43,369 bases of DNA from Halalkalibacter oceani (GTDB taxonomy: Bacteria > Bacillota > Bacilli > Bacillales > Bacillaceae_D). The notes under the pieces are model-generated. The model did no database searches. It was not told the origin of the DNA and saw only the letters and a list, made by a program, of their open reading frames with translations. The translations under genes and the position numbers were made by a program. The stretch is taken from positions 1 to 43,369 of the forward strand of contig NZ_JAMBOL010000027.1 in NCBI RefSeq assembly GCF_023715605.1, read 5' to 3'. Below are positions 17,266-32,417 of the stretch, piece after piece; the stretch's first letter is position 1; each line of letters begins with the position of its first letter.

Positions 17266-17567
17266 ATTGCTGCTCACACCAACAAAATTAATTTGTTGGT
17301 GGCTATTTATGCTGATTTAGGTTGCAGCGGCGGCATCTGCTGCCGCTGCTGCATCGTCCGAACCGAATTGTAAACAAATTCGGTTCTAGTGCAAAAAACG
17401 TAAACAAAGACTCAATCTAAGTCTTGGATAACAGCGGAAAGACGTATAGTTCCGATTGAAAACATACTAGTAATAGTAGCAAAAAATACAATAAGCCAAC
17501 GTGCATTTAAACTATCGTTTAAATGCTTTGTAAACAGTTTAAATGATAAAAGGAGTGTTAATTAGTT
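17266..17567 (+). other. repeat-rich intergenic region, probable parC centromere
   Basis: 302 bp without a gene. It contains CACCAACAAA/TTTGTTGGTG (17278-17302), a long GC-rich GCAGCGGC...GCCGCTGC dyad (about 17324-17352), a GAACCGAATT/AATTCGGTTC dyad (about 17358-17386), CATTTAAAC/GTTTAAATG with a further GTTTAAATG (17504-17545), and GTAAACA at about 17370, 17400 and 17530. In type II systems the adaptor binds repeats upstream of the actin gene, so this is the expected place for the centromere and the autoregulated promoter. The first dyad may also terminate the preceding gene. Confidence 0.5.
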
Positions 17568-18734
17568 ATGAGAATAAGAAGAATGAACACAGATTTTGGT
17601 AATTCGTATTTTATGACGTTAATAAACGGGTATTTAAAAGAGATTCCAACCAATGTCGTTGAAATTAATAAAGACAAAGCAGAAGACTACTTTGTGAATC
17701 CGATTACCGATAAGAGTAAATTCATTTCAAACATGATGATTTCTACGGAAGTTAATGGAGAGGAAAGGTATTTTATTGTAGGGAAACTCGCAGAAAGAGA
17801 GATGTTTAAAAATGAACATATTCGAACCCTGCACGATAAAGTAGAGTCGATTATTCCTTATGTCATGTTCTTAGCTTCTATAGCAGAATTTCAAATAGCA
17901 AGAACAGAAGAAAATAGGGAAGGACAATCAGAAGAATATCATGTGACAGTAGACTACTTCCAAACAATGTTGCCAGTATGGCTACTTCGCAAGGCATCTA
18001 AATTTAGCGACATGCTAAACGAAATGGCCGCTCGTTTTCAAGGGAATCATATTGTACAAGTGAAAACACCGGGCTTGGAACGCTCGATCCATATCGAAGT
18101 CCAACAAAGTAAATGCCGAATTGAAGGAGAAGTCGCCCGCTGGGGCTTAAAGAAAGACCTCTCATTGGAGGATAACCCTGTAGCTGACCTCTTTCAAAAG
18201 GTTGTGACAGTAATTGTTGATATAGGGGGAGGTACTGTAGATATCGTGGTGTTACCACCTGGATTAGACTCTCCCCGGAGTAAGGATTCCTTAACTACAC
18301 TAACCGATGTGGCATATCTAAAGTATTTAGAAAAATTCCGTGAGCATAAACTCCTGGAGCACTTTAGTGATGTGCGTGAACTTGAAGATTTTATTGTACG
18401 CAATATCGGGAGAACGGAAATGGCAAAGAAAGATCCGATCACGCAGCAAGTCACTGAACTCAAGGAGCCTATTAGTGAAATGCTAGAAGGATATGCTGCC
18501 ACGCTATTAAAAAAGCTGGAAGGGGAAATTCGTGATTTAGTGAAATCAGAGTATAAATTCCTTTATATAGGCGGTGTATCTGAAGTCTTACGAGAGGCGA
18601 TGAGGGATGTAGTAGGAAAGAAATACGGCGAAGAAACGTTTGAGAAGCAGCATATTTTTGTGGAAAATGCACGGCAAATGAATTTAATTGGGCTTGAAGT
18701 GATAAGCCTAAGTGAGACCGGTGATTTTGAGTGA
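17568..18734 (+). CDS. parM: ParM-like actin ATPase, plasmid segregation
   Basis: 388 aa. Actin-fold motifs are in order: phosphate-1 DFGNSY (residues 9-14), phosphate-2 VDIGGGTVDI (217-226) and adenosine motif YIGGVSE (333-339). Length is usual for bacterial plasmid actins (ParM, AlfA, Alp). Such proteins polymerise with ATP into filaments that push or pull plasmid copies bound through a ParR-type adaptor. RBS AAAGGAGTG lies about 13 nt before the ATG. It is followed 31 bp later by a small basic protein fitting ParR, and preceded by repeat-rich DNA fitting parC. The subtype cannot be decided by eye. Confidence 0.88.
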   Translation: MRIRRMNTDFGNSYFMTLINGYLKEIPTNVVEINKDKAEDYFVNPITDKSKFISNMMISTEVNGEERYFIVGKLAEREMFKNEHIRTLHDKVESIIPYVMFLASIAEFQIARTEENREGQSEEYHVTVDYFQTMLPVWLLRKASKFSDMLNEMAARFQGNHIVQVKTPGLERSIHIEVQQSKCRIEGEVARWGLKKDLSLEDNPVADLFQKVVTVIVDIGGGTVDIVVLPPGLDSPRSKDSLTTLTDVAYLKYLEKFREHKLLEHFSDVRELEDFIVRNIGRTEMAKKDPITQQVTELKEPISEMLEGYAATLLKKLEGEIRDLVKSEYKFLYIGGVSEVLREAMRDVVGKKYGEETFEKQHIFVENARQMNLIGLEVISLSETGDFE

Positions 18735-18765
18735 GGAATGAAAAGGATAGTAGGGTGAAAACAAG

Positions 18766-19200
18766 ATGGCTAGAAAACCAGGGCGATTGATAAAAACGGA
18801 TAGAAGACCGCTTGTTTCATTTCGAACTGATAAACTTGAAGATAAGCTATTTCATTATTTTGTTGATTTAGCAAATGATCATCCAGATGGACCAAGAGGA
18901 GTCATTTTCGAAATGATTAAGGAACGTTATATGCGTGAACAAGGAGCAGATCCTAAACAAAAAACGGTTGACGAAATACTCCCACAAATAGTAACGGCGT
19001 TTGAGCAGGTCTTAGTTCATCAGCTGCAGCTGTTAGAGTACAAGATCAAGGATCAATTGCAATCAACTACTTCAGTAATACCGGTGCGAGTAGCAAGTTC
19101 ACAGAAGGAGAAAGCAGACGAAATCCAGTTGACTCAAGAGAATTTTAAAGGCAAAAAAGAAAATAAAATTGATCCTTCTCTTTTTTCAGTTTTTGATTAA
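18766..19200 (+). CDS. parR: probable ParR-type DNA-binding adaptor
   Basis: 144 aa. A basic N-terminus (MARKPGRLIKTDRRPLVSF) forms a possible beta strand of a ribbon-helix-helix, followed by helices around KLFHYFVDLAN and PRGVIFEMIKERYM. The C-terminal half is a predicted helix and a disordered tail ending SLFSVFD, comparable to ParR tails that bind the actin filament. Position directly behind the actin gene supports the call. Residue-level similarity to a known ParR was not established. Confidence 0.65.
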   Translation: MARKPGRLIKTDRRPLVSFRTDKLEDKLFHYFVDLANDHPDGPRGVIFEMIKERYMREQGADPKQKTVDEILPQIVTAFEQVLVHQLQLLEYKIKDQLQSTTSVIPVRVASSQKEKADEIQLTQENFKGKKENKIDPSLFSVFD

Positions 19201-19213
19201 GGTAAGTAAATGT

Positions 19214-19262
19214 CATAGCAGCGCGGATAATTCCCCTTTTAAGGGGGATTTCTTATGCTATG
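19214..19262 (+). terminator. terminator after partition cassette
   Basis: An inner stem AATCCCCC-type (AATTCCCC/GGGGGATT, 19229-19250) followed by TCTT is nested in an outer CATAGCA/TGCTATG pairing (19214-19262). Confidence 0.6.
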
Positions 19263-19302
19263 CACTCGCATTGTGAAAAAATGAGCAAAAGGAGGCTTGG
19301 AA

Positions 19303-19497
19303 ATGTCTACAAATGCTGTTTTAAAAACATTCGAGAATCTTATAAACCGCAGTAAATTAACAGGCGATACACGGATCCTTAAAGTGTTTATTACGAATAT
19401 GGAGCGTCTGCAAACAAAGCAGGGGATCGAATTACCTATTGAATTGATGAGAAATCAACTTCAAAATATTGAAAATCATGATATAGATAATTTCTAA
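19303..19497 (+). CDS. hypothetical protein, 64 aa
   Basis: ATG at 19303 with AAGGAGG (19290-19296) 6 nt upstream; the in-frame TTG at 19297 abuts the RBS. The product is a small helical soluble protein (MSTNAVLKTFENLIN...), similar in style to many plasmid-borne small proteins. No family recognised. It follows the partition cassette after a terminator. Confidence 0.65.
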   Translation: MSTNAVLKTFENLINRSKLTGDTRILKVFITNMERLQTKQGIELPIELMRNQLQNIENHDIDNF

Positions 19498-19630
19498 CGA
19501 CTGTGAAACCGCCACAGAATCAACAGAAACCGCTTTGATTTGTCATTTAAAACATCAAATTGAAATTTCAGAAAAGTATTGGAAACATCCATGTTACTTG
19601 TTAAAATAGGAAAAAAGAAGCAAAAAACTA

Positions 19631-19659
19631 TTGTTATTAACGTTTAAATAATATATAAT
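19631..19659 (+). promoter_or_regulatory. SigA-type promoter
   Basis: TTGTTA (19631-19636) and TATAAT (19654-19659) with exact 17-bp spacing, 57 bp before the small membrane protein gene. The rest of 19498-19715 is AT-rich without an ORF. Confidence 0.65.
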
Positions 19660-19715
19660 ATATATATGATATAAACAATAAATTATGTTTCTTTCAAATA
19701 CGAAAGGAGGGATTT

Positions 19716-19895
19716 ATGGATTATAATGATTTGTTGAACTTTATCTTGTTATCCTGGTTGATAGGTCAACTTGCCATTTTTCTTTTGGCATATGTGCGCA
19801 TGATCGGAATGCGACTTGCTTTTGTTTTATTAATATTTCTACTAGCGCTATCATTAAATTTAATTGTGCTTTTTTACTTAAGTGATATAGTTTGA
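19716..19895 (+). CDS. small membrane protein, 59 aa
   Basis: ATG at 19716 with AAAGGAGGG (19703-19711) 4-5 nt upstream, and its own SigA-like promoter. Two hydrophobic helices (FILLSWLIGQLAIFLLAY and LAFVLLIFLLALSLNLIVLF) are joined by a short RMIGMR basic turn. This is the form of small phage/plasmid membrane proteins (holin-like or immunity-like), but nothing fixes the function. It precedes the CAP protein gene by 46 bp and may be co-transcribed with it. Confidence 0.65.
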   Translation: MDYNDLLNFILLSWLIGQLAIFLLAYVRMIGMRLAFVLLIFLLALSLNLIVLFYLSDIV

Positions 19896-19941
19896 ACATT
19901 AAAATTAAAAAGATGTCTACAAAAAAATGCGGAGGCAGATC

Positions 19942-21750
19942 ATGAAAAAAATAAGGTCATATTTAGCGGCAGCTTTCATATCCGGAGTGCTTAGTTTAGC
20001 TCCCATTACAGCAAGCGCGACACCGATTGATGTCATTGATCCTTTTGAGGATCTTGATCAAAAGGATCTTCAACAAACGCAACAGGAATTGTTGGAGTGG
20101 ATTAATGTGCGCAGAGAGATGATGGGATTACCAGCGTATACATTACATGAGGATTTGAATAAGTCTGCACAATCCCATGCGAATTATCAAACAGCTCTAA
20201 ATCAGAGTACCGGACATTTTCAACCGGAAAAAGATCATCCTTTATATACGGGTGAAAGACTCGAGAATCGTACAGCTTATTTTGGATATGATGCAATTAC
20301 AGGTGGCGAAGGGATCACCGGGCACACAGTAACGCCTGTTGTCGCACTACAAGCGCTGCTTGACGCTCCTTATCATCGAATGGATCTTTTAAACCCGAAT
20401 CACCGTCATATAGGCTTTGGCGTGACCAACGTACCATATCGACGTTCTGCACTCGTAAATAATTATGGTGGACCGGAACGGTACACGGCAAAGGAACTTG
20501 TCTCTTATCCCTTTGACGGCCAAATTAACGTACCGATCAGCTGGTACAATTCAGAGATACCAAATCCGCTGGAACGTTTTGGATTGAGTGGGAATTACGT
20601 AGGGTATCCGATCAGTTTGGAAGCCTACGGCTATGACCAATTAAAATATGATGAAGTGATTTTAGAAGACGAATGGGGCCAAGAAATAGACAGCTACTTA
20701 GTAGGAGGCACAAAAGAGAACCCATTTGTGCGGCATTTGCACATTATTCCAAAAGAGGTACTAAAACCAGGAACCACTTATCATGTTTCTGTAAGAGGGA
20801 CTGTAGTGGATCATGATGGGGCGTCAGAGACTTTTGACAAAAACTGGTCGTTTACTACAGTGGAATCATTAGCTATTCAAGGACTTAGTATCCGTGGGGT
20901 AAACCAACTTGTATGGCATTTTTATGCGGGTTCACTAGACGAAGTATCTGTAGAATTATTTAACGGTACTCAATTGTTTCATGTTTACCATCAGAAAGAT
21001 CGCAAAATCAGTGGCTACTATGTACGCCCTTTAATAACAGGTACTTATACGGTTAGGGTTTCATCCCCATACTATGATGAACCATATGTTGGAGAGATCG
21101 AGATTAAGGGGAATCTCCTTCAAGGGTATGAAATTACAGGAGGACATCATGACCTTCCATTAACAGCAGGAGAAAAGCTTGTACCTCCTCCAGAAGAAGA
21201 GCCGGTCGAAGAGGAACCGGTAGAAGAAGATGTTCCAAATGTTCCTGTTGACCCGGTAGTCCCACCGGAAGTAGAAGACCCACCGGCAAACAATGAAGAC
21301 GATTCTGCTCATGAGGAAGAAGTTGTCGAAGAGCCAACAGAAGAACAGCCGCAAGACGAGCAAGATCAACAGGAGACACCTGAAGAGGAACAAAAAGAAA
21401 CGCCAGAACCGGAAAAACCATCAAAGACTATTCCAAGTTCTAGTGACTATCATACGGTAAAAATAGAGAAGAGTATCCGTGCAAATGATGTGTTACGCAT
21501 TAATTTCACAGGCGAAATCGATGCTTCCTCGATCACAAAGGATTCTGTTTTCTTGATTGATCAGAATGGTAATGAGCATCCAGTGGATAGCTGGACCGAA
21601 AGACGTGATATCACATTAGCGTTCCAATCCAGCAGCAAGGATGGTTATCCTCCTGGAAGCTATACGCTAGTGGTCGATCGGGAAAAAGTTAAAGGGCAAA
21701 ATGGTTTGAATATTGCGAGAGGGTTGTTGGTTACATTTACAGTGAGGTAA
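19942..21750 (+). CDS. secreted CAP (SCP/PR1)-domain protein with Ig-like domains
   Basis: ATG at 19942 chosen over the in-frame ATG at 19927 because GCGGAGG lies between them; 602 aa. Signal peptide MKKIRSYLAAAFISG...ASA is likely cleaved near residue 26. The CAP domain (about 45-165) has LLEWINVRREMMGLPAY, ASxSHANYQ-type and TGH elements, and closes with PYHRMDLLNPNHRHIGFG. A bacterial Ig-like region (about 190-310) ends in a WSFTTVE strand, then another beta module (WHFYAGSLDEVSVELF, TGTYTVRV) recalls the tail units of the giant proteins. A Glu/Pro-rich spacer (about 415-490) and a final Ig-like domain follow. CAP proteins of Bacilli are extracellular and of unclear activity. Confidence 0.85.
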   Translation: MKKIRSYLAAAFISGVLSLAPITASATPIDVIDPFEDLDQKDLQQTQQELLEWINVRREMMGLPAYTLHEDLNKSAQSHANYQTALNQSTGHFQPEKDHPLYTGERLENRTAYFGYDAITGGEGITGHTVTPVVALQALLDAPYHRMDLLNPNHRHIGFGVTNVPYRRSALVNNYGGPERYTAKELVSYPFDGQINVPISWYNSEIPNPLERFGLSGNYVGYPISLEAYGYDQLKYDEVILEDEWGQEIDSYLVGGTKENPFVRHLHIIPKEVLKPGTTYHVSVRGTVVDHDGASETFDKNWSFTTVESLAIQGLSIRGVNQLVWHFYAGSLDEVSVELFNGTQLFHVYHQKDRKISGYYVRPLITGTYTVRVSSPYYDEPYVGEIEIKGNLLQGYEITGGHHDLPLTAGEKLVPPPEEEPVEEEPVEEDVPNVPVDPVVPPEVEDPPANNEDDSAHEEEVVEEPTEEQPQDEQDQQETPEEEQKETPEPEKPSKTIPSSSDYHTVKIEKSIRANDVLRINFTGEIDASSITKDSVFLIDQNGNEHPVDSWTERRDITLAFQSSSKDGYPPGSYTLVVDREKVKGQNGLNIARGLLVTFTVR

Positions 21751-21811
21751 GCAGATATTGTAAAGACGATACAGTATTTGCAGGAACAAACTGGATCCGA
21801 CATAAGTTTAT

Positions 21812-21864
21812 ACGTGCTGCCCATGTCCACACAACTATAGAAAAAGGATGTGGCAGCACGTTTT
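21812..21864 (+). terminator. terminator after CAP gene
   Basis: ACGTGCTGCC (21812-21821) pairs with GGCAGCACGT (21852-21861), followed by TTTTAATT. The loop is about 30 nt. Confidence 0.7.
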
Positions 21865-21945
21865 AATTACACTGTATTAAATACTGAATATTCTTAATTG
21901 TTTTAAGGGTTATTAAGCGGAGTCTACTTTAGAAAGGGTGAGAGC

Positions 21946-22224
21946 ATGGAAGGATTGAAAGATATACATCTACATACTCCGACAGAAACAGTATTAGAAG
22001 CAATGGAACAAGCTGGTTTTCAATTAAAAGGAACATTCCATTTTCATTACCCGGAAAGCAGGCTTACATGGTATCAAGAAATCAAAAAAGAAATATTTGA
22101 AAAAGATAACAAACTGTACTATTTTGCCGGGGTTACTGAATGGGAAGGTGAAAAAATTTCAGTGATTCGAATAGGAACAGTAAAAAATAAATGTGATAAT
22201 AATAAGGAATACATGTCTAGCTAA
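21946..22224 (+). CDS. hypothetical protein, 92 aa
   Basis: ATG at 21946 with GAAAGGGTG 7 nt upstream. Soluble, aromatic-rich (FHFHYPESRLTWYQE, LYYFAGVTEWEGE), probably a small alpha/beta protein. No family recognised. It starts a run of small AT-rich genes after the CAP terminator. Confidence 0.65.
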   Translation: MEGLKDIHLHTPTETVLEAMEQAGFQLKGTFHFHYPESRLTWYQEIKKEIFEKDNKLYYFAGVTEWEGEKISVIRIGTVKNKCDNNKEYMSS

Positions 22225-22316
22225 AAACCACATTCTAAGAACGATCATTTATATGATGTATGATTGGGAAGTAACCGTTTCTTTAGTGCAACTGTTCATA
22301 GGTGGCCTAATATAGT

Positions 22317-22490
22317 GTGAAGGAGGTAATTACACCGTGTGAGGTCGATTCTTTTAATTTAAAGCGAGAGGCCGGTGATATTTTCAGACTAATTTACATG
22401 GTTGATGGGAGGATTAATGAGCACCTAATTGCATTAGACGCTTTAGACGCAATTGAAAAACTGGAATCAGTCATAAAACCGAATAAATAA
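22317..22490 (+). CDS. possible 57-aa protein with unusual start
   Basis: The frame CEVDSFNLKREAGDIFRLIYMVDGRINEH... ending in a terminator-overlapping TAA looks coding. The only GTG in frame (22317) overlaps a very good AAGGAGG (22320-22326), whose normal start position would be out of frame. Either the GTG is used with the weak upstream AGGTGG, an ATT start is used, or the 5' end is broken. No family recognised. Confidence 0.4.
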   Translation: MKEVITPCEVDSFNLKREAGDIFRLIYMVDGRINEHLIALDALDAIEKLESVIKPNK

Positions 22491-22524
22491 AGAGCCTTTA
22501 CCCAAGTGTAGAGGCTCTTTATTT
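22489..22524 (+). terminator. rho-independent terminator
   Basis: AAAGAGCC (22489-22496) pairs with GGCTCTTT (22513-22520), followed by ATTTATATT. Confidence 0.75.
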
Positions 22525-22551
22525 ATATTATGAAAGGGGTTAGTTTATTAA

Positions 22552-23085
22552 ATGTACAAAAACGTATTATTTATATTCATGTTTCTAGGTGCCCTATTTT
22601 TTTTGACGGGCTGTAGCTTATCTTTACTCCCATGGTGGGGAGACGACGAGGAAATTGAACAAACTGTTGATCCGAATGAAGAATATGCCGATCTAGTAAC
22701 GGATGTATTCAACGACTCCAATGTTCTGCTGCAGCGGTTTAATAAGATGTTAGATCAACTTTATGGCCAACAGATAAGTAAACAGGCTGTAGCTCAAGAA
22801 TTAGAGGAGATCGTTCCACTTTCTAATCAGTTGCTGCTAAAGCTGGATGATGTTTTATATAACGTAGATGACCGGCTATACGATTTACATCGTGAATTGA
22901 TTGTGTTAATTAATTTCCAGCACCAGACTTTTCTAAGGTGTTTAGAGATGTCAAAAGACGATGAAGAGGAAATCGACAAAGATCAACTAAGGCAAGATTA
23001 TGTAAAAATCAAATCTGATCAAACTCTATTGGTGCAAAATATCAAGCAAGCGCTACAGCAAATTTTGTTTCCCGCTGAAGAATAA
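22552..23085 (+). CDS. lipoprotein of unknown function, 177 aa
   Basis: ATG at 22552 with GAAAGGGG about 12 nt upstream. A type II signal peptide with lipobox LTGC (residues 18-21) should lipidate Cys21 and place the protein on the outer face of the membrane. The mature part is acidic and helical (DDEEIEQTVDPNEEY..., NQLLLKLDDVLYNVDDRLYDL), suggesting a helical bundle. Seventeen bases separate it from the next gene. No family recognised. Confidence 0.8.
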   Translation: MYKNVLFIFMFLGALFFLTGCSLSLLPWWGDDEEIEQTVDPNEEYADLVTDVFNDSNVLLQRFNKMLDQLYGQQISKQAVAQELEEIVPLSNQLLLKLDDVLYNVDDRLYDLHRELIVLINFQHQTFLRCLEMSKDDEEEIDKDQLRQDYVKIKSDQTLLVQNIKQALQQILFPAEE

Positions 23086-23101
23086 CAGAGCTGGAGTTGA
23101 A

Positions 23102-23335
23102 GTGAAAAAACATTTAAATGACATCAAGTTTGTGAATGGCAAATGGATGATTTTTAATAAGGATAAAATTATTGGAGGAGATATTCAGCAATCTGATTAT
23201 CTCCTTTTGGTGTTTCTGATGATAGTAAGAAGTCATCACGAAAACAGAGTAAAAAAGCGCTTGGCTGAAGGGGTTTTACCAGGTGGACAGCTTCGGGTTG
23301 AAGAAAATTTTATCTTGCATAAAAAGTATCTTTAA
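23102..23335 (+). CDS. hypothetical protein, 77 aa
   Basis: GTG start at 23102 with a weak GAGCTGGAG upstream, 16 bp after the lipoprotein gene and probably in its transcript. Small basic protein with a FVNGKWMIFNKDKIIGGD hairpin at the N-terminus and a hydrophobic stretch YLLLVFLMIVRS in the middle. Function unknown. Confidence 0.6.
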   Translation: MKKHLNDIKFVNGKWMIFNKDKIIGGDIQQSDYLLLVFLMIVRSHHENRVKKRLAEGVLPGGQLRVEENFILHKKYL

Positions 23336-23380
23336 AACTTAAATATTAATAAAAATACATAATTTAAACGTTAATATTAA

Positions 23381-23409
23381 TTGAAAAATTAAGACTTAAA
23401 TGCTATAAT
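23381..23409 (+). promoter_or_regulatory. SigA-type promoter of the sigma-factor operon
   Basis: TTGAAA (23381-23386) and TATAAT (23404-23409), 17-bp spacing, in an AT-rich intergenic region 75 bp before the 23484 gene. Confidence 0.7.
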
Positions 23410-23483
23410 ATTAGTAAGTTAAATTATAAATAAGTTTTTTAAAATTAATTTATTAATATAATAAATTGGCTGGAGGGTTTGCG

Positions 23484-24026
23484 ATGGAAGGTAAGATTGA
23501 TGTTCGCGCTGCTCATTTGACAATCAATAATTTCTTTAAAGAGACAAAGAAAAACGAGAGGATGAGAATGAATTTATTTCGACGGATAATGGCTCAAGCA
23601 CCACATCGTATGTATTTTGAGCCATCCTCTTCATCGGTAGTGCTATTCTTTGATAAACCTCAATCGTTGTTATTTGGCTATTATGTCACGTCTCGGCCGG
23701 ACGGCGTTATTCAGGGAGTGGCGCGTAATGTCAATGTAATACCGGAAGTTTGCCCATCAGCCGTTGAAATGTGGAAAATCCTAGCGGGTATAACTACGGA
23801 GAGTGTAATGGAGGAGTTCGCTAGGTATGTTGTGACGCATGCTGCTGGAGATGACTTTTTAAAAAATAGGCGAGCGCTATTGATGTTAAAAACAACATCA
23901 TTTGCAAGAATGTTGGAAGAATTTAATCACAATGTATTTAATGCATTTGTGAACCGTTGCGTGGAGGAGTTCTTTGAGTATGCAAGGTCAATGTTTGACG
24001 AGATCGTTGCCCATATGAAAATTTAA
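23484..24026 (+). CDS. hypothetical protein, 180 aa, first gene of sigma-factor operon
   Basis: ATG at 23484 with TGGAGGG (23471-23477) 6 nt upstream; the in-frame TTG at 23466 lies before this RBS and was not chosen. Soluble, with a beta segment (RMYFEPSSSSVVLFFDKP, LLFGYYVTSRPDG) and a helical C-terminal half (FARMLEEFNHNVFNAFVNR). No known motif. It lies 35 bp upstream of the sigma factor and shares its promoter, so a regulatory role (for example anti-sigma or co-factor) is possible but unsupported by sequence. Confidence 0.7.
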   Translation: MEGKIDVRAAHLTINNFFKETKKNERMRMNLFRRIMAQAPHRMYFEPSSSSVVLFFDKPQSLLFGYYVTSRPDGVIQGVARNVNVIPEVCPSAVEMWKILAGITTESVMEEFARYVVTHAAGDDFLKNRRALLMLKTTSFARMLEEFNHNVFNAFVNRCVEEFFEYARSMFDEIVAHMKI

Positions 24027-24061
24027 CTAAGAATTAAAAAAGGGAAGAAAGGAGGCGCTTT

Positions 24062-24718
24062 ATGAGCGACCGAGAAATCATTAACTTTGAAAATTTACTG
24101 CAAGAGTGGAAGGGTAACATACAAGGTATAGTTAATAAACTCACTCCCGCAGCTCGGCTTAGAGGGTTAGACCAGGATGACCTATATCAAATGGCATGCA
24201 TGGGCTTGTTCGCCGCTTATGATGAATTAGGGGCTTTGGAACAAAAGGAGTTTTTTCAAATGGGTAACGCATTTATTTATCGGTATGTTTTAAAAGAGTT
24301 GAGGGTTCAAGGTAATCGAGGTTTCCGGTATCCGGCATGGCTGATTGATCTAACACAAAAGGTCAGGAGAATCTCAGCTCAGGCTGATACCGATGATCCA
24401 ATCAAGATTGCTGATCTCCTGAATATTCCTATTGAACACGCTAGACAAGCGTTAAATGCAATCAATCAACAAAAGACCTTTTCCTCACTTGATGTCATTC
24501 ACCGCTCAAAAGAACCAATCGTGTACAATCAATCAACTATATATTTTGGAGAGTTTATTCAGGCGTTGACAGAGGTCGAAAAGACCTGCATTTTAGGAAA
24601 ACTTGCTGGTGAAACTCATGCACTATTAGCAAAAAAGTTAGGCGTATCACCATCTATAATCAATAAGCACCTTAACCGAGCAAAAAGAAAGATGCAGGAT
24701 TATTTTATGGCCTCTTAG
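24062..24718 (+). CDS. sigma-70 family factor
   Basis: 218 aa; ATG at 24062 with GAAAGGAGG upstream. Region 2: residues about 25-85, with LDQDDLYQMACMGLFAAYDELG and FIYRYVLKELR. Region 3: about 90-135, RYPAWLIDLTQKVRRISAQ then the helix-turn-helix IADLLNIPIEHARQAL. Region 4: about 165-215, LTEVEKTCILGKLAG and a helix-turn-helix LLAKKLGVSPSIINKHLNRAKRKM. Region 1 is absent, as in the SigB/SigF type rather than housekeeping sigma. All three working regions look complete. It should direct RNA polymerase to a specific promoter set, perhaps genes of this plasmid. Plasmid location among small membrane-protein genes is notable. Confidence 0.8.
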   Translation: MSDREIINFENLLQEWKGNIQGIVNKLTPAARLRGLDQDDLYQMACMGLFAAYDELGALEQKEFFQMGNAFIYRYVLKELRVQGNRGFRYPAWLIDLTQKVRRISAQADTDDPIKIADLLNIPIEHARQALNAINQQKTFSSLDVIHRSKEPIVYNQSTIYFGEFIQALTEVEKTCILGKLAGETHALLAKKLGVSPSIINKHLNRAKRKMQDYFMAS

Positions 24719-24747
24719 AGTTGCAGGAGCTAATGGGAGGATAAATA

Positions 24748-25191: not shown

Positions 25192-25211
25192 TTTTGTAAA
25201 GGGGCTTTTAA

Positions 25212-25415: not shown

Positions 25416-25834
25416 TGGTACAACAGCAAGAGCACACCCTTACAAAAGAAGAAGTCACCCAGCAACTAATAGATACTCAAAAATTGAGAATCGCAATGCT
25501 TGAAGGAAATATAAGTGCACTACTGTCCTTGCTTGCGGTTATTATTGCTGTACTTACATTGTTTGGCGGTATATTCGTTTGGGTTTCCAGAAGGGCTTTT
25601 TCGTCTAAGGTAGAGGAAGTAGAGAAACGGCTCGATGAGATGAAGCAGCTCAAAAACGAAGCAATAACGAAAATTGAAACTGTAAGAGAACTTAGCAGCA
25701 ATCTCAATGTGGCGATTCGTGAAGCAGAAGATTTGCAAATCAGCTTAAATAAAAGCAAAAGTGCCTTCAATGAAGAAACCGAGAGAATGGATCAGTTACG
25801 AAAGTATTTTAGAGTTGAAAGTATCGCGGTCTGA
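25415..25834 (+). CDS. membrane coiled-coil protein, 139 aa
   Basis: ATG at 25415 overlaps the stop of the previous gene. One central membrane helix (about residues 33-58, ISALLSLLAVIIAVLTLFGG) is followed by a long heptad-rich helix (VEEVEKRLDEMKQLKNEA... to LNKSKSAFNEE). The last residues overlap the next ORF in another frame; a single-base shift would join the two into one longer coiled-coil protein, so this may be the N-terminal part of a split gene. Confidence 0.65.
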   Translation: MVQQQEHTLTKEEVTQQLIDTQKLRIAMLEGNISALLSLLAVIIAVLTLFGGIFVWVSRRAFSSKVEEVEKRLDEMKQLKNEAITKIETVRELSSNLNVAIREAEDLQISLNKSKSAFNEETERMDQLRKYFRVESIAV

Positions 25835-26240
25835 GATTTTACGTACATTTGAGAACCGTTTGAACCAATCCACAAGATTGATTAGTCAACTTGAAGACTG
25901 GCTTGAAGGAACACTCCCGAACTATAAACAGGCCCTTGGAAAGGTTACAGAAATTTTGGGCAAGAACGTCACAAAGGAAGGAGCTGACGAAACGATCCAA
26001 GAAAAGCTCAGTTACTCGCTAGACTATTTAAAAGAAAATGAAAGTCATTTTTGGGAACAGGCCGAAAAAAACTTAAAATGGGCGGATTTCGAAGATATGG
26101 ATACAGAAGATTATATAGATCCACTCAGTGCAAAATTCGAAGAGTGGGAAGAATCATATAAGAAAATAGAAAAGGTGCATGGAATTATCTGGGCTCAGAT
26201 CACAATGAACCCAGATAAGTTTAAACCAAAACAAAAATAA
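25770..26240 (+). CDS. hypothetical coiled-coil protein, 156 aa
   Basis: The frame is open from 25761 (GTG); the ATG at 25770 is used here, overlapping the previous gene by 65 bp, and neither start has a good RBS. A TTG near 25818 is another option. From residue about 20 the product is clearly protein-like: FENRLNQSTRLISQLEDWLEG, then acidic helices with many W and E. Lack of an RBS and the deep overlap suggest a frameshifted continuation of the 25415 gene or coupled translation. Function unknown. Confidence 0.5.
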   Translation: MKKPREWISYESILELKVSRSEILRTFENRLNQSTRLISQLEDWLEGTLPNYKQALGKVTEILGKNVTKEGADETIQEKLSYSLDYLKENESHFWEQAEKNLKWADFEDMDTEDYIDPLSAKFEEWEESYKKIEKVHGIIWAQITMNPDKFKPKQK

Positions 26241-26753
26241 GGAACTAAAGAAGAGCTTATGTTGAACAAGGCCTTTTCTATCTCAAATCAAAAATTAAAC
26301 AACATTTTAAACCACGCACTACATGTAGTGCGTGGTATGCTTGATTGAGGTTGAATATTTAAGTAACTTTATTGTCATTATACAATTAGAACTTTTCTGT
26401 CTCATTTCTCAAGATAACTTTTGTTTTTGAGACATAAAATATTTATTCACTTTGGTTCCGATAATGTATCTTATGTAAACTAACAAATTAAAGCGGTGAA
26501 GCGTTAAATAATTAAACTCTTCCCTTCCTGTCCGTTGAAGCAATGGTGATGACATGACGTCCTTTTTTGAAGCAATTATGATGACATTGACCGTTATGTA
26601 TACACTTTTACTTCATTTTTTCGGTATGTCACCACAATTATTTCGTCGTCCGCTTCTTTATTGTCCTTTGTCCAATGTTGAAACATCCTATATACAATAT
26701 CCATTAATCATATCAAGGTTCCCTATACACGAAAGAAATACTCAATTAGATCA
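26241..26753. other. 513-bp intergenic region with a perfect palindrome
   Basis: No supported gene. The notable element is a perfect 26-bp palindrome at 26311-26336 (half-site ACCACGCACTACA), not followed by a T-run on the plus strand. A plus-strand ORF (26554-26814) lacks an RBS and overlaps the minus-strand gene, so it was not called. Confidence 0.6.
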
Positions 26754-27176
26754 CTATCTACATCTCGCCCTCTTCCCGTTAATCGATATATCTTTTCCTA
26801 ATGACACGGCATAATAGTCTTCTCCATTATGTTCGATACGAGTAGCATTCCACCGAGAATAATCTCCCTCATCCTCCAGGATCTCGATGGAATCTCCAGA
26901 AGTAAAATATGTACCGCTTTCAAATTCATAACGTCCGTCTGAATTATGCCTTAATATGCCTTCATCTCTTATTGGCTTTTCTAAATATCGAATATTTCTT
27001 ACGACGTCGTCCATTTTATTAAGCATTATTCTACATTCATCAGTATACATATTGTTGTCTGGTGAATGGTCATAAATGATATCCTCACCATCATATCCAA
27101 ATTTATCTACTATTTTTTTGATTTCGCTTTGTAAATTACGAATTTCATCAAAAGCCTCTTTGCCAGTATAGCTCAT
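26754..27176 (-). CDS. DUF5348-like protein, 140 aa
   Basis: Start is the ATG at 27176, with AGGAGGA 8 nt upstream on the minus strand; 16 more in-frame codons upstream precede the RBS. The N-terminal half is helical (EAFDEIRNLQSEIKKIVDKFGYDG). The C-terminal half (about 90-140) has the small SH3-like layout YEFESGTYFTSGDSIEIL, W-N-A-T-R-I-E-H, GEDYYAVSL that I associate with DUF5348, a family of unknown function in Firmicutes mobile elements. Family call from memory of the pattern. Confidence 0.6.
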   Translation of the reverse strand: MSYTGKEAFDEIRNLQSEIKKIVDKFGYDGEDIIYDHSPDNNMYTDECRIMLNKMDDVVRNIRYLEKPIRDEGILRHNSDGRYEFESGTYFTSGDSIEILEDEGDYSRWNATRIEHNGEDYYAVSLGKDISINGKRARCR

Positions 27177-27478
27177 ATTTTCTTTCCTCCTATATATAAT
27201 TGTTAATTGAATCTTATACTGCAATCTATATCTACGTATGTTCTATTCTATTTAGCGCTATCATTTACCTTCAAAATACTTTTATTAACTCTCATAAATC
27301 AAAATTATTGAAAATGTAAGTCTTTCACTCGACTGTCACTATCCAATATGACTGGTCTATATAAAAGCGCATGCCGTTCTTGAAGATTGGGACCCTCTCA
27401 CTATCAATGGAGGTCTCCCCTCTCCACTTTATATCTAGTCATTAATATGCCACTTCTAGCTTCTTATATTATCACTTA
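27177..27478. other. intergenic, nothing recognised
   Basis: 302 bp of AT-rich DNA between two minus-strand genes. It should contain the promoter of the DUF5348-like gene; no clear ORF, repeat or strong hairpin was seen. Confidence 0.5.
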
Positions 27479-28249
27479 TTAGTTACCCTTCTCTTTGGAT
27501 TCTACTGCACCTTTATCTACAGGTAAAACTTCTTTAGTGTATTCTACGAATTCTGACAGTGTTTCTGTCATTTCGTTATATTGTTCTATTTGAGTCTGCT
27601 TTAAGTCGTTTTGCTCGTTTAAAATATTTATTTCTTCACGCTGAATAATGATTACTTGTTCTTGTAATTCATTTTGCTGTTTCAACTCTGTAATCATTTC
27701 GCTGAACTGTTGGGTAGTAGATTCGTTAAGATAGAAAGTTAGAAGTACATTAAAGATTGCAATAAAAATTACTATTAATTGGTCCCAACTTACCTTAACT
27801 GTTCCATTAGACCTCTTAGCCGCATGAACAACTAACCCACTAGGTAAATCAGCATAATCTTCCTTAGGACTTAACCCTTCAAGTTGATCCGCAAGTATCT
27901 GTAATCTTAAACTAATAGCGTCAGAAATAACTCTTTTATTTAAAGGCTCAAGTGACTCTACAATTTCCGAAATACCATCTGCTATCTGATTTAATTGCAC
28001 TTTCTGTACTGAATTGCTCAAATGGTCAATCAAGGTGTGCCTTGCGTTAATTATTGGTAAAAGAGCCTCCTCGTAACTATCCATTTCAAAAGTACTCAAC
28101 AATGCTTGTTGAGCTTTTAATGTCTCTATAACGTGTTTTTTTGCCACCTCACTTATTTGATCAATGACCATCGTTGTTTTGCGCAGTTCAAAATCGCTTA
28201 TAGCATTCAAATTCCTTTGAATACTCTTCCATTGTTCTGATGGATGCAC
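27479..28249 (-). CDS. membrane-anchored coiled-coil protein, 256 aa
   Basis: GTG start at 28249 with GGAGGG 5-6 nt upstream on the minus strand. The N-terminal two thirds are helical and soluble (residues 1-155). One membrane helix is near 157-177 (LIVIFIAIFNVLLTFYL), then a Gln/Glu-rich heptad segment (MITELKQQNELQEQVIIIQ) and a short charged tail. This resembles phage/plasmid abortive or immunity proteins in layout, but no family is recognised. Confidence 0.7.
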   Translation of the reverse strand: MHPSEQWKSIQRNLNAISDFELRKTTMVIDQISEVAKKHVIETLKAQQALLSTFEMDSYEEALLPIINARHTLIDHLSNSVQKVQLNQIADGISEIVESLEPLNKRVISDAISLRLQILADQLEGLSPKEDYADLPSGLVVHAAKRSNGTVKVSWDQLIVIFIAIFNVLLTFYLNESTTQQFSEMITELKQQNELQEQVIIIQREEINILNEQNDLKQTQIEQYNEMTETLSEFVEYTKEVLPVDKGAVESKEKGN

Positions 28250-28386
28250 ACAATCCCCTCCCTATTCTTTGTGAAACCGATACCTACAAGATAATCGACT
28301 TTGCTTTACTGGTCCACCTATACTAATATTATAATTAATACTAAAAGCTAATAAAATAAAATTTAATTTGTTGTAAGGAGCTATTA

Positions 28387-28530
28387 TTGAATTCATATCG
28401 CGTTTCCAGAGAGAATTTTTCAGTATTTCAGCCGATTCTAAGGGATCAATCAGATGTTAAAGCTTTTCGTGGTGCTGCTCAAAAAGGAGGAGATATTATT
28501 TTCACCTATGAGCCAGGATGGACAGCATAA
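28387..28530 (+). CDS. possible 47-aa protein
   Basis: TTG start at 28387 with AAGGAG 7-8 nt upstream. Translation MNSYRVSRENFSVFQ... ending FTYEPGWTA is compact and protein-like. It could be a small protein or the surviving end of a larger one. No family recognised. Confidence 0.4.
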   Translation: MNSYRVSRENFSVFQPILRDQSDVKAFRGAAQKGGDIIFTYEPGWTA

Positions 28531-28920
28531 ACTATTCTTTATTCTCAGGGAAAGTCTACAAAGTCGTTCAAGATATAAATCATTAAAATAATCATGTTGT
28601 TTAAAAATGGCCACGATACGAAAGGCAACCTACCGTGCTTTAAACAGCATTAGTTTGAATAAGTAAGTATATATGGAGTCAGCTTTGAAATTAAGCCTGC
28701 TCCATAGATAAGCTGATTTAGTACGCTAAGCTTAAATAACCCTCTCCCCCCTATTTACAACTCCGCAGCGGCTTCATCAAGTTATTAAGTGTGATTGTTT
28801 TTCATGCACTTTGGGAATACCTCAAATTAATATAACTAATGAACATTCACTATTATATTTTTCTAACCTTCCCCTGAATTACTATAATCTTCGTTTCACT
28901 TCTCTCCCCTTGGTTGTTTT
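28531..28920. other. non-coding stretch with two imperfect hairpins
   Basis: No ORF worth calling. TGTTTAAA/TTTAAACA (28598-28646) with an inner CACG/CGTG pairing, and TATGGAG...CTCCATA (28672-28706) with an inner CAGC/GC(C)TG pairing, are the only structures noted. A small RNA or a decayed gene is possible. Confidence 0.4.
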
Positions 28921-28935
28921 CTTGATTTAGAAAAA

Positions 28936-29058
28936 TTCGACGAAGTTTAACTTCGTTAGCATGAAACGTAGTACTAAACTCGACGCACCAATAGATATTA
29001 ACGAATAAACTTCATACGAAGTAATACGAAAAAATTCGTAGTTGTTCGTGACGAAAAA
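28936..29058. repeat. left TTCGT/ACGAA-rich array beside tub locus
   Basis: Several ACGAA or TTCGT words occur in about 120 bp, including the dyad ACGAAGT/ACTTCGT (28940-28956), TACGAA/TTCGTA around an A4 centre, and TTCGTGACGAA. The same word is frequent downstream of tubZ (31160-31535), so the tubulin genes are bracketed by it. Likely protein-binding or origin DNA (inference). Confidence 0.5.
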
Positions 29059-29177
29059 TTTAAGGAACTAACCCTCGAATATAATGTAAATCCTGAAGTA
29101 TAACGAATATTTAGTATCTTATATGTGATTTTAACTTAATTAGCTATCTCATATAACTACTGCTAATTGTGTCATAT

Positions 29178-29255
29178 TTATTGAAGCGATTATTGCCTTA
29201 ATTATTACCTCAGTTATTGCGTCAATATATTACACTGCGGCATTTATTGCGGTGA
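29178..29255 (+). repeat. tubC: tubC centromere, iteron cluster 1
   Basis: Tandem 12-bp units in exact register: TTATTGAAGCGA (29178), TTATTGCCTTAA (29190), TTATTACCTCAG (29202), TTATTGCGTCAA (29214) and a degenerate TATATTACACTG (29226), with an out-of-register TTATTGCGGTGA at 29244. TubR proteins bind arrays of short repeats upstream of tubRZ to build the centromere complex. Confidence 0.75.
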
Positions 29256-29302
29256 TATCTTGTTAGTGTACGATCTTTAATACAAGGAAACAGCGGTAAT
29301 TG

Positions 29303-29331
29303 TTGACAGTCAAACAATGAGAATTTAATAT
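29303..29331 (+). promoter_or_regulatory. promoter of tubRZ
   Basis: Perfect -35 TTGACA (29303-29308) and TAATAT (29326-29331) with 17-bp spacing. It lies between the two iteron clusters, so TubR binding would occlude it: autorepression is expected. Confidence 0.7.
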
Positions 29332-29333
29332 AG

Positions 29334-29424
29334 TTATTAAGGCAATAATTGCCTTAATTATTACGGTAATAGTTTACTATGTTAGGGAGTATTGCGTCAG
29401 TAATTGACGTAATACTTACCGCAT
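29334..29424 (+). repeat. tubC: tubC centromere, iteron cluster 2
   Basis: Units TTATTAAGGCAA (29334), TAATTGCCTTAA (29346), TTATTACGGTAA (29358) are in register, then GTATTGCGTCAG (29389), TAATTGACGTAA (29401) and TACTTACCGCAT (29413). Neighbouring units also form dyads. The cluster lies just downstream of the tubR promoter and ends 26 bp before the start codon. Confidence 0.7.
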
Positions 29425-29450
29425 CATACTCATTAAGGTGGTGATACATA

Positions 29451-29792
29451 TTGGTTAACATTACTGTCGAGAATATCTTCTCTATATTTTTAGAACGATT
29501 AGACGATGAAGGGATTTGGTTTATGCTAGCATTAAGGAGGGCCAGTCAACCTTTATTAAAGGACAAATTAAAAGATGAAGTTAATCGCTTATATCTTGAA
29601 AATAATATGAATGATGGAGATGAGAAATTACTTGTAACATCTAGGTATATCTTAGATAAATATACTGAACGTCTTGTAGGTGCAGGGCTTGTTAATGTTA
29701 CTGAAATTGGTAAGGCGCGACTTTATAGCCTTTCTCAATTAGGTGAAGAATTTTTAGAATTTAATAAAAGAAAAAGAATCGATAATAATTAG
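29451..29792 (+). CDS. tubR: TubR, DNA-binding adaptor of tubulin partition system
   Basis: 113 aa; TTG start with AAGGTGGTG about 8 nt upstream. A winged helix-turn-helix: helical N-terminus (ENIFSIFLERLDDEGIWFMLAL), recognition segment, and the wing GAGLVNVTEIGKARLYSLSQLGEEFLEF, close in pattern to TubR of Bacillus plasmids (CAGYIDETRVG...YTLSDLG). TubR dimers bind the iterons just upstream and link DNA to TubZ filaments. tubZ follows after 11 bp. Confidence 0.85.
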   Translation: MVNITVENIFSIFLERLDDEGIWFMLALRRASQPLLKDKLKDEVNRLYLENNMNDGDEKLLVTSRYILDKYTERLVGAGLVNVTEIGKARLYSLSQLGEEFLEFNKRKRIDNN

Positions 29793-29803
29793 GAGGTTCT
29801 GCA

Positions 29804-31123
29804 ATGATCGTATCCGGGAAAAATGACACACAAGGACTTCAACAGCAATTGCTTCGAGATAGCAACGTTGACATCAGTATGAAGTTTGGCTTTTTAGGTT
29901 TAGGTATGGGTGGCTGCTCTATTGCAGCAGCATGTGCTGACATCGAAATGGCGAAAACCAACTACCGCTTTCCTTATTCAGCTTTACTGGTGAATACAAA
30001 TAAAGTTGATCTCGACAAAATAGAAACTAAGAATTCTTTAATCCGTAAATTGTTGGTCGGAAATGGTAAAGGAGCTGGTCGTAACCCCTCTGTTGGTGAA
30101 CAGATCTTTCGTGAAAATCAGGAGGCTATTAAAAATGAGATTTTAACACAATTTAAAGACTCTGAATTTGTCTGGGTAGTTGCAGGATTAGGTGGTGGGA
30201 CCGGAACAGGAAGCATCATACAAGCTGCACAAACGCTATATAATAATGGTTTCGATAATAAATTTGGGCTTATACTCACCTTACCTCGACTAACTGAAGG
30301 AAAAGTAGTTCTTGATAATGCATTAGAGCAATTACAGACTATTTCTCGTTTAATGGATTCAGCCTTTGGATCGATCATCCTGGTTGATAATAATAAGCTT
30401 TACGGGGATTATACTACTCTGGAACCAAACGCAAGTGTTTCGGATTACCTGAATTTCAGTAATGAGTATGTCGCTGATACGTTACATGAATTGAATATTA
30501 TTACAGCATCCTTTAAACCATATGGGGAATTTCACTTTGACAGCAGTGAATTTGAGAATCTCATTAAGACACCGCGTATTCTACACTTAGCGAAGTTTAG
30601 TTTACCAGCTAATTCAGTTGATACAGATCAAAGTCTTACTTACATTCGCCAGTTGGAAGAATACATACAGAATGGTGTTTTATCTGGGGGTTATCGCTTA
30701 AATAAAGCATCGCGGCTTGCTGTTAGTATTATTACAAATGAAAGTACTTCACAGCGTATTTTCAACTTAACTTTTAGTAATACTATAGAAAAACAGTTAT
30801 TAGAAATAGCTCCTATTGCTAGTGAAAGACCAATTGCTCAATATAAATATAATCTAAAAAATAAGAATGACATATATTTCTATGTTTTACTAGCAGGTTT
30901 GCCACTTCCTACATCTATTAAAGCATTGGTTGAAGAAAATACTAGACTAATTGACTTAGAAAACGCCACAGATGATGAAGATGAAGTGTTCTCTGCTCTG
31001 GCTGGTTATTCTCGGACAAAAGCTAAGAAAATAACAGAGGAAAAAGTCGATCCTTTCAGTACTCTATCTTCATCCTCAAATAATGCAAAAACAAAAAAAC
31101 CTAATCCTTTCGATTTACTTTAA
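29804..31123 (+). CDS. tubZ: TubZ, tubulin/FtsZ-like segregation GTPase
   Basis: 439 aa; ATG at 29804 with AGGAGG upstream. The GTP-binding signature GLGGGTGTG is at residues 128-136, an N-terminal GFLGLGMGG loop at 29-37 and NGKGAGRNP at 87-95. A C-terminal charged tail (SRTKAKKITEEK... to NPFDLL) matches the TubZ region that touches TubR. TubZ polymers treadmill and drag TubR-centromere complexes; in pXO1 and pBtoxis the homologue (RepX/TubZ) is also needed for stable replication. It is followed by a good terminator. Confidence 0.95.
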   Translation: MIVSGKNDTQGLQQQLLRDSNVDISMKFGFLGLGMGGCSIAAACADIEMAKTNYRFPYSALLVNTNKVDLDKIETKNSLIRKLLVGNGKGAGRNPSVGEQIFRENQEAIKNEILTQFKDSEFVWVVAGLGGGTGTGSIIQAAQTLYNNGFDNKFGLILTLPRLTEGKVVLDNALEQLQTISRLMDSAFGSIILVDNNKLYGDYTTLEPNASVSDYLNFSNEYVADTLHELNIITASFKPYGEFHFDSSEFENLIKTPRILHLAKFSLPANSVDTDQSLTYIRQLEEYIQNGVLSGGYRLNKASRLAVSIITNESTSQRIFNLTFSNTIEKQLLEIAPIASERPIAQYKYNLKNKNDIYFYVLLAGLPLPTSIKALVEENTRLIDLENATDDEDEVFSALAGYSRTKAKKITEEKVDPFSTLSSSSNNAKTKKPNPFDLL

Positions 31124-31150
31124 AAAAGACATCTGAGATGTCTTTTTTTG
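31122..31150 (+). terminator. terminator after tubZ
   Basis: AAAAAAGACATCT and AGATGTCTTTTTT are separated by a single G in a tight hairpin with a long T-run; it begins at the tubZ stop codon. Confidence 0.9.
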
Positions 31151-31159
31151 TGAAATGGA

Positions 31160-31535
31160 CAATCTATTGGTTTAACGAATTTTATCAGCTTTTTTCGTCT
31201 TGATTCCTTGCTTCAACGAACATCAACTAGAAAATTCATTTAAATTCGTTTAAAACTTGGTTGAACGAGAAATTTCGGGTTAATTCGTTGGATATAATAT
31301 TTATTACTAAGTGAATCGAATTGAAACGAAGTATTAATAATAGTTATATAGTTTGTATCTGCGTATAACGTAGTAAGATTTCGTTATAATTAGTAATGAA
31401 AAATTATTCGTGTCTTTTCGTTATTTTGGTGGAAAACCTTATAAATTTCCGTGTTTTGTGGTACGATATCATAAGTTATACTATGATTTCGTGAATTTGA
31501 TACGAATTGTTTCGGTTCGATGAATTTCGTGATGA
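31160..31535. repeat. right TTCGT/ACGAA-rich array, putative origin or tubY operator
   Basis: About a dozen ACGAA/TTCGT words are spread over 375 bp of AT-rich DNA between tubZ and tubY, in both orientations and irregular spacing. A dyad ATCATA...TATGAT at about 31469-31489 overlaps a TATACT -10-like hexamer, as expected for a MerR-type operator. No ORF is present. Confidence 0.5.
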
Positions 31536-31550
31536 TTGGAGGCGTTGTAT

Positions 31551-32417
31551 TTGAATGAAAGAAAGATTATCCCGAATGAAGACGATATATATGTCAAAAT
31601 TGAATCTGATTTGCAGTATGATAACTTATATAATTTAATCATTGAAAGGGATCAGCTTAAAACTGAACTTTTTGACAGTGGATTTCTTTCCCATCTTGAG
31701 AAAGATATGCATAGGTGGTACAGCGTCCAGGAGGCAGGCAGGATTTTAGGAGGAGACAAGCCGATACCTCCAAGTTCACTATCTTATTATATTGATAGTT
31801 TAGAGGAATATATCATTCCAGATGATGCTCCCTCAAATAGTTACATTCGGCTTAATTATTTGTCTTTAGTAAAACTAAAAATGGTATGGCTGTTAAAAGA
31901 TGAGTTTAGACTGAAAGGGTTAAAAGCAGAACTCGGTATTACCGGAAATCCTAAAAATGTTATAAAGGAAACAAAAGAAAGTAGTAGTAATAGGGACAGG
32001 GAATTAGCTGATGCCTTCGAAAAGATCGAACGCTTAGAAACGGTGAGCCAAACGTTATTGGGCTTATTGCTTGAAAAAGGTGAGAATGATCAGCTTCAAC
32101 TAAAGCAACCACTTCAACAACTGTTAAATCAAAATAATTTAATAGAAGAGCAATCTTCAGTGCTGAAAAAATTAGAAGATCAAAACAATGTGTTAAAGGA
32201 AATACAAGAAAAACAACAACAGCAAGAAAAAGAATCAAACAAACGTATTATTGAGAGTGAGAAAAAAGTTAATTCTCTAGCAGAGATCTTCAGACTTAGA
32301 AAGCAAGCTGAAGAAGAATGGGATAAATTAAGTCTACTTACTAAAATTACGAAAAACCGGACAGACTTCATAGAAAGTTGGATTAATAAACATTCAAATA
32401 AGGACAATAAAGAGTAG
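31551..32417 (+). CDS. tubY: TubY-like MerR-type DNA-binding coiled-coil protein
   Basis: TTG at 31551 chosen: GGAGG (31538-31542) is 8 nt upstream, while TTGs at 31536 and 31545 overlap or abut it; 288 aa. Residues about 45-125 form a MerR-like winged helix (WYSVQEAGRILGG, SSLSYYIDSLEEYI, RLNYLSLVKLKMVWLLKDEF). From about 145 a long Q/E/K-rich coiled coil runs to residue 245, then a basic C-terminus. This is the layout of TubY, the fourth component of tubCRZY partition systems described in a C. botulinum phage and Bacillus plasmids, where it modulates TubZ and tub expression. Confidence 0.75.
   Translation: MNERKIIPNEDDIYVKIESDLQYDNLYNLIIERDQLKTELFDSGFLSHLEKDMHRWYSVQEAGRILGGDKPIPPSSLSYYIDSLEEYIIPDDAPSNSYIRLNYLSLVKLKMVWLLKDEFRLKGLKAELGITGNPKNVIKETKESSSNRDRELADAFEKIERLETVSQTLLGLLLEKGENDQLQLKQPLQQLLNQNNLIEEQSSVLKKLEDQNNVLKEIQEKQQQQEKESNKRIIESEKKVNSLAEIFRLRKQAEEEWDKLSLLTKITKNRTDFIESWINKHSNKDNKE

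Follow-up and report, generated by a model that had tools for sequence, protein, structure and literature searches.

Contig NZ_JAMBOL010000027.1 of Halalkalibacter oceani encodes two cytomotive segregation-type loci, one built on an actin and one on a tubulin. The stretch of DNA analyzed, hereafter the window, is this contig in full (C44; 43,369 bases), from a 4.47-Mb draft genome in 124 contigs. An Alp7A-type actin locus shares it with a tubC-tubR-tubZ-tubY locus (29174-32417), the end of alp7R and the start of tubR being 10,251 bases apart, and the two nucleoside triphosphatases (NTPases), Alp7A and TubZ, have full-length frames with intact catalytic motifs. These data suggest that the contig is probably a plasmid or other extrachromosomal element with two complete, separately wired partition loci, one of type II (Alp7) and one of type III (tub), probably brought together by plasmid fusion. 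The individual parts belong to known kinds, but finding them together is uncommon. A sequence-only reading had proposed a ParM-like actin with a probable ParR, a full tub locus about 11 kb away, and a cytomotive plasmid segregation role for both. The family matches and intact motifs described below support these assignments, with the distance corrected to 10.3 kb and the two accessory proteins named by position and layout, aided for TubY by homology.

The actin-like ATPase matches the Pfam family Alp7A_like_C (PF22128) with an expect value (E) of 1.7e-47 and 163.6 bits, and it is 47.5-48% identical over its whole length to Alp7A of the Bacillus subtilis plasmid pLS20 (PDB entry 5ec0). The profile match of the actin to 5ec0 is not independent, as the alignment included pLS20 Alp7A itself. 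At low scores, PF22128 was rejected as a plasmid marker, since 217 of 397 genomes of the order match it. In 205 of these 217 the best score is 142.5 bits or less (the genome tally is complete), and we set the threshold for plasmid-grade Alp7A at 159 bits or more; the window actin falls in this upper group. A tblastn search at 1e-3 with the Alp7A actin found no match in the lower-scoring PF22128 loci examined. These lower-scoring actins (listed frames of about 385-437 residues) occur mostly as one copy per genome, several of them on chromosome-sized contigs. One (L064:781-2550) is directly followed by a 198-residue gene and resembles a chromosomal ParM-ParR pair; chromosome-encoded ParMs have been reported (PMC12270681).

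The DNA upstream of the actin gene had been called repeat-rich, and its repeats are indeed significant. Between positions 17266 and 17567, inverted 8-mers occupy 26 positions, compared with a mean of 2.5 in shuffles (none of 300 reached 26), and direct 8-mer repeats number 14 against 3.2 (6/300 reached 14). The region is structured, not a clean iteron array, and hairpins plus three TTGTAAACA/GTAAACAAA copies make up much of the signal. Upstream of alp7A in pLS20, the same statistic gave 30 direct 8-mers against 4.9 (0/300) and 17 inverted against 3.5 (1/300). Four stretches outside the partition loci served as controls and gave 15/300 (26241-26560), 9/300 (32420-32545), 218/300, and 300/300, the first two being less than clean.

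The Alp7R-like partner is identified mainly by position and layout; in an Alp7 system, a ribbon-helix-helix adaptor ending in a conserved acidic tail would be expected there. The open reading frame (ORF) after Alp7A encodes 114-240 residues in 13 of 14 other loci, L061 having only a 50-residue ORF, and the window protein aligns with these relatives at its N terminus and coiled-coil part. A lone-sequence model predicts helices at residues 21-38, 43-58, and 68-100, with low confidence (predicted local distance difference test, pLDDT, of 56).

The tubulin locus gave strong profile matches. TubZ matches TubZ_C in Pfam (E 2.5e-24), and its profile finds RepX (PDB entry 4ei7) as the closest solved relative at 8.5e-137, compared with about 1e-16 for TubZ of the pBtoxis type. 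The TubR profile reaches PDB entry 6aht at 2.1e-24 and pBtoxis TubR only at 0.019; no Pfam or NCBIfam model names this protein. The tubC region contains nine motif hits in 300 bases, compared with a maximum of five in 200 first-order Markov sequences of window length, and 31 direct 8-mer repeats against 4.7 in shuffles (0/300). With up to three mismatches allowed, 10 of the 50 hits in the whole window lie in tubC, and related iterons precede tubR in Anaerobacillus (L012, 10 hits) and in genome G079 (L048, 8 hits). A promoter-like site lies inside tubC; such sites number 50 window-wide against a shuffle mean of 55, which is no excess.

The putative TubY is so named for where it lies, its layout, and its homology with other loci rather than for a match to a characterised TubY. 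A TubY would be expected to have a MerR-like helix-turn-helix (HTH), a coiled coil, and an amphipathic C-terminal tail. The model of the window protein shows an HTH-like region and a long helix, again with low confidence (pLDDT 59.9). The tail has 10 lysines or arginines and 9 aspartates or glutamates in 45 residues and is thus not a plain lysine cluster. TubY-like proteins are annotated as DNA primase on Lysinibacillus plasmids (L007:23660-24568 and L088:7866-8786); the 16 kb examined at L088 has no annotated tubZ.

The two loci appear to be wired separately. We found no clustered tubC-type iterons or ACGAA pairs at alp7 and no alp7-type repeats at tub, and the longest words common to both are 8-9 bases. 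Shared regulation was rejected as an explanation, there being no clustered motif of one locus at the other. Each locus also has its own terminator-like hairpins, and the absence of cross-sites together with these separate hairpins indicates independent wiring rather than coordination.

Two arrays of ACGAA/TTCGT words flank the tubRZ genes. There are 10 copies in 28800-29450, where about 1.3 are expected, and 12 in 31124-31535, where about 0.8 are expected. Each of the six control regions in the window, L012, and L048 has same-strand ACGAA words paired at a distance of exactly 10 bases, with seven such pairs against a mean of 0.65 under random placement (0/5000 trials), a spacing that was seen before being tested. 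The resulting composite, ACGAA-N5-ACGAA, occurs three times in the window (0/100 shuffles reach 3) and was found in 7 of 86 loci examined, each a tub locus, although the seven are partly redundant: L001 and L010 share sequence with the window, and L012, L082, and L049 are one place. When 26 TubZ loci were compared, all four with a TubY at least 40% identical (the window, L012, L048, and L087) had the composite in front of tubR as well as in front of tubY. Among the remaining 22, one locus (L015) had it, in one copy, and five with a more distant TubY-profile match had none. The fresh tests here are G079 and Metabacillus for the ACGAA count, and only Metabacillus and the 22 other loci for the 10-base pair.

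The Metabacillus plasmid pB218 (L087), found via its TubY (40.6% identical), is the informative case. It carries one composite in each of its two control regions, upstream of both transcription units, whereas its TubZ comes from a distant clade (1.2e-23, compared with 7.9e-125 or better for the window, L012, and L048) and it has one tubC-type hit, compared with 10 in the window. The presence of composites at both regions despite a distant TubZ suggests that the element tracks TubY and not the TubRZ clade. We therefore propose ACGAA-N5-ACGAA as a candidate TubY operator. TubY binding upstream of tubRZ has been reported in pBc10987 (PMC7762940), which the composite placement fits; the sections of that paper drawn on here do not give the exact binding sequence. 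At L087:9399-11283, the distant TubZ is accompanied by an unrecognised 145-residue gene in the tubR position, as if one TubRZ module had been exchanged for another while TubY was conserved.

By analogy with their families, the two loci would act as follows. Alp7R would bind its own upstream region and link the plasmid to Alp7A filaments, and TubR would coat tubC, tying it to treadmilling TubZ filaments, and would repress the promoter-like site inside tubC. TubY may bind the ACGAA pairs located in the tubRZ control region and beside its own gene, serving as both activator and segrosome partner and activating tubRZ, perhaps itself too. Alp7A and TubZ filaments would each move the plasmid, their motor actions being taken from their families (for ParM and TubZ, PMC7762940). 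TubRZ of the RepX-like clade may in addition double as a replicon, as repX does for pXO1, where a repX minireplicon supports replication (PMC4219350).

An intact pair of this kind looks rare. In the family (41 genomes, the source included), TubZ_C occurs in the source genome alone. Across 397 genomes sampled from the order, four have TubZ_C (the source, G079, G105, and G209, whose locus L049 is identical to Anaerobacillus L012) and 12 have plasmid-grade Alp7A; the source genome is the only one in both sets. A search for the other TubZ C-domain, PF22453, covered 14 genomes, including the 11 remaining ones with plasmid-grade Alp7A, and matched only G000 and G079. A search for other plasmids with both systems had been suggested, and in PLSDB this TubZ has 14 matching plasmid records and this Alp7A 137, with none in common as judged from genus tallies: Lysinibacillus is the one genus in both tallies, and the sole Alp7A record that it contributes (NZ_CP106867) does not recur in the TubZ set. 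Bacillus cereus-group RepX plasmids are absent from the 14 TubZ records though RepX is the nearest solved relative, and the plasmid counts do not cover that group. In 22 TubZ genomes or records (16 genomes and 6 plasmid records), Alp7A_like_C was found in five and ALP_N in nine, and an actin match on the TubZ contig itself only in Domibacillus robiginosus. Two further TubZ plasmid records had no ALP_N match, and the ALP_N match of G079 sits on another contig. A pattern scan of viral contigs found no relatives of TubZ or Alp7A; the annotated phage set held one Alp7A record and two TubZ records (phage G, deposited twice; 25.7% identity).

Dual partition systems are common in general. A PLSDB survey counted several partition systems on 4144 of the 21,790 plasmids in which systems could be recognised (PMC13245405). 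Its text names type I+I, I+II, II+II, and III+III as combinations, and type II+III goes unmentioned there, Fig. 1C and the supplements lying outside this statement. Our literature search, by title, abstract, and passages and with few subscription papers, found no paper describing TubZ and Alp7A on one plasmid.

Compared with known systems, the actin locus resembles Alp7 of pLS20 in its actin, in the adaptor directly downstream, and in its repeat-rich upstream region, but the repeats differ in sequence, and pLS20 is absent from the 14 TubZ plasmid records. The tubulin locus resembles the TubZRC of pXO1 and pBc10987 (RepX 4ei7; TubR-like 6aht), with tubC upstream of tubR-tubZ and TubY nearby; unlike in the window, tubY lies upstream in pBc10987 (PMC7762940). 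Anaerobacillus arseniciselenatis contig NZ_MLQQ01000044.1 has 68% identical TubZ, 64% identical TubR (111 residues), and 56% identical TubY (215 residues), similar iterons, and ACGAA pairs at the same two places, but that genome has no Alp7A_like_C or ALP_N match. The pB218 plasmid differs in that the TubR profile misses the gene in its tubR position and in having no ALP_N match on its 330-kb record. Dual partition is also seen in pBMB165, with ParM and ParA (PMC8026635), and in Lysinibacillus fusiformis pG5.M11b_2 (62 kb, circular), with TubZ and an annotated ParA-family gene.

Several observations weigh against our interpretation. The sequence-only reading asked for one closed molecule: we have a single contig, with no misjoin-prone repeats, whose ends do not overlap and give no sign of circularity. 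It had also suggested a fused plasmid, and here the two families do otherwise sit on different plasmids by the tallies, but we saw no plasmid junction and found no parental plasmid. The Alp7R-like protein is 21-22% identical to pLS20 Alp7R and 12-23% to six family members; its C-terminal end differs: EGQL is retained in 10 of 13 other full-length partners and a DF or DL end in all 13, and the window protein has neither. These partners are not independent, six of them (L051-L056) being closely related and L057 the same as L008. The TubY-like protein has no Pfam hit, no TubY chain was found in the PDB by sequence, and a search with the TubY profile misses the pBsph-like loci L003 and L004. The tubC and ACGAA motifs were chosen after inspecting the window and L012. 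The 8-mer repeat statistic is not significant upstream of tubY (117/300 shuffles) and weak in 28880-29120 (12/300), so the case for both ACGAA arrays rests on the ACGAA count. Across the 4.47-Mb genome, the composite occurs 17 times, compared with 27 for the reversed control, which is no genome-wide enrichment; three of the 17 fall within 2.4 kb at the tub locus. Filament and partition roles are, moreover, predicted here from the genes.

The likeliest history of the pair is a merger of two plasmids that each brought one of the systems. Such events have been invoked before: 29 of 31 B. cereus-group megaplasmids carry at least two minireplicons, which was attributed to plasmid fusion (PMC4219350). 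The nearest TubZ relative, on a 94.8-kb Anaerobacillus contig, has in common with the 36 window ORFs compared only the tubRZY genes, Tn3-type transposition genes, and a weak nuclease match. It is possible, if doubtful, that after such a fusion one partition locus suffices and the other decays, with Alp7 and its odd adaptor tail on the way out. The diverged Alp7R tail is consistent with this, as is the finding that only one of the two ParABS systems of SCP1 is critical under standard laboratory conditions (PMC13245405). In D. robiginosus, an actin-like stretch with two stops, its gene start about 2.4 kb upstream, stands beside an intact tubRZ-tubY; however, this actin was found with ALP_N and not with Alp7A_like_C and is another branch. 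It adjoins a 62-residue ORF that is ribbon-helix-helix-like by eye (best Pfam match Plasmid_stab_B, E 0.0065, under its cut-off). In the window, by contrast, both NTPase frames are full-length with their catalytic motifs intact, and the region upstream of alp7A retains its significant repeats. The sequence-only reading had also raised a sharing of work between the systems, on which we found no direct evidence for or against. We consider it unlikely that labour is divided such that TubRZ(Y) acts mainly as replicon and copy-number control and Alp7 segregates at division. The replication name of the closest solved TubZ relative (plasmid replication protein RepX) and the pXO1 minireplicon would fit that division, as would the lack of any other recognised replication initiator in the 31 window proteins scanned with Pfam, bar a Replic_Relax-family protein with relatives that adjoin conjugation genes; yet tubC, TubR, and TubY are all retained, which is the anatomy of a partition locus, and the contig is incomplete, so that another initiator may lie off it. 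Similarly speculative is the idea of two cytomotive filaments working at once in separate jobs, a TubY-controlled tubulin for replication and positioning and an Alp7 actin separating copies at division, with ACGAA-N5-ACGAA as a TubY operator moving with TubY between TubRZ clades.

That the DNA is instead an integrated element, with one filament system serving transfer or excision, seems improbable. A 50%-identical actin relative does lie on a 5.2-Mb single-contig genome (G125:C1), and one integrated prophage uses its actin, AlpC, to move phage DNA (PMC4446434; PMC8026635), but the 31 scanned window proteins included no recognised phage-type integrase or relaxase, a Tn3-type resolvase being recognised, and no recognised chromosomal housekeeping gene. 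A still smaller chance attaches to an artefact in which two plasmids of one strain were joined in the draft contig. The assembly is fragmented, and in the named plasmid set the tallies place the two systems on separate plasmids. On the other hand, the contig has no Ns, and searches of the genome and contig found the 15.5 kb at 17000-32500 in single copy, other matches being 26-97 bases long and 76-86% identical except for one 26-base self-matching palindrome. Because only such short partial copies exist elsewhere, a repeat-driven misjoin is unlikely. A DNA-level search of plasmids with 17000-34000 gave no match. Fusion of two plasmids remains our preferred origin; the coordinates of both loci are collected in Table 1.

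Table 1. Features of the two partition loci in the window
Feature	Position	Strand	Details
Candidate alp7C	17266-17567		Hairpins 17277-17301, 17323-17353, 17360-17386; TTGTAAACA/GTAAACAAA copies near 17368, 17400, 17528
Alp7A-type actin-like ATPase	17568-18734	+	388 residues; motifs DFGN (9), DIGGGT (218), GGV (335) intact
Alp7R-like adaptor	18766-19200	+	144 residues; N-terminal segment aligns with pLS20 Alp7R, long helix, diverged C-terminal end
Terminator-like hairpin after alp7R	19232-19248	+	
ACGAA array upstream of tubC	28886-29110		10 ACGAA/TTCGT at 28890-29107; ACGAA-N5-ACGAA pairs 29016-29030 (+), 29035-29049 (-)
tubC iterons	29174-29425		TTATTGCC / GGCAATAA / GTCAATA type
Promoter-like TTGACA-17-TAATAT	29303-29331		Inside tubC
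TubR	29451-29792	+	
TubZ, RepX-like clade	29804-31123	+	GLGGGTGTG intact at residue 128
ACGAA array upstream of tubY	31150-31535		12 ACGAA/TTCGT; pair 31407-31421 (-)
TubY-like protein	31536-32417	+	Predicted HTH region at about residues 61-88, long helix, C-terminal end rich in basic and acidic residues

The neighbouring genes are of mixed kinds. The first open frame begins 19 bases from the left contig end, and 19-13479 holds two giant genes (1963 and 2198 residues), both with fn3 repeats and the second with RCC1-like repeats as well; they have 52 and 50% G+C, compared with 37% for 13480-43369. The Replic_Relax-family protein lies at 16141-17265, just upstream of alp7A. Five TubZ plasmids (L002-L005 and L087) have a Replic_Relax-family gene divergent to the tubR position and adjoining a TraM/TraG-like gene. 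A sigma-70-like factor (24062-24718) stands between both partition loci, and a perfect 26-base palindrome (26311-26336) lies within 26282-26488, which has imperfect copies on other contigs and is perhaps a small repeat element. A Tn3-type transposon occupies 37440-40845, its transposase in two frames; the two Anaerobacillus matches share one frame register. Rfam at gathering scores gave no matches in the window.

Together, these data point to plasmid fusion as the likeliest origin of the pair. The ACGAA pairs offer a concrete DNA target for TubY, and the proposed operator is the most testable new point of this analysis. Intact actin and tubulin motors on one DNA cargo, if real, would provide a natural test of whether two cytomotive filaments can move one plasmid without a tug-of-war and of the purpose that each serves.

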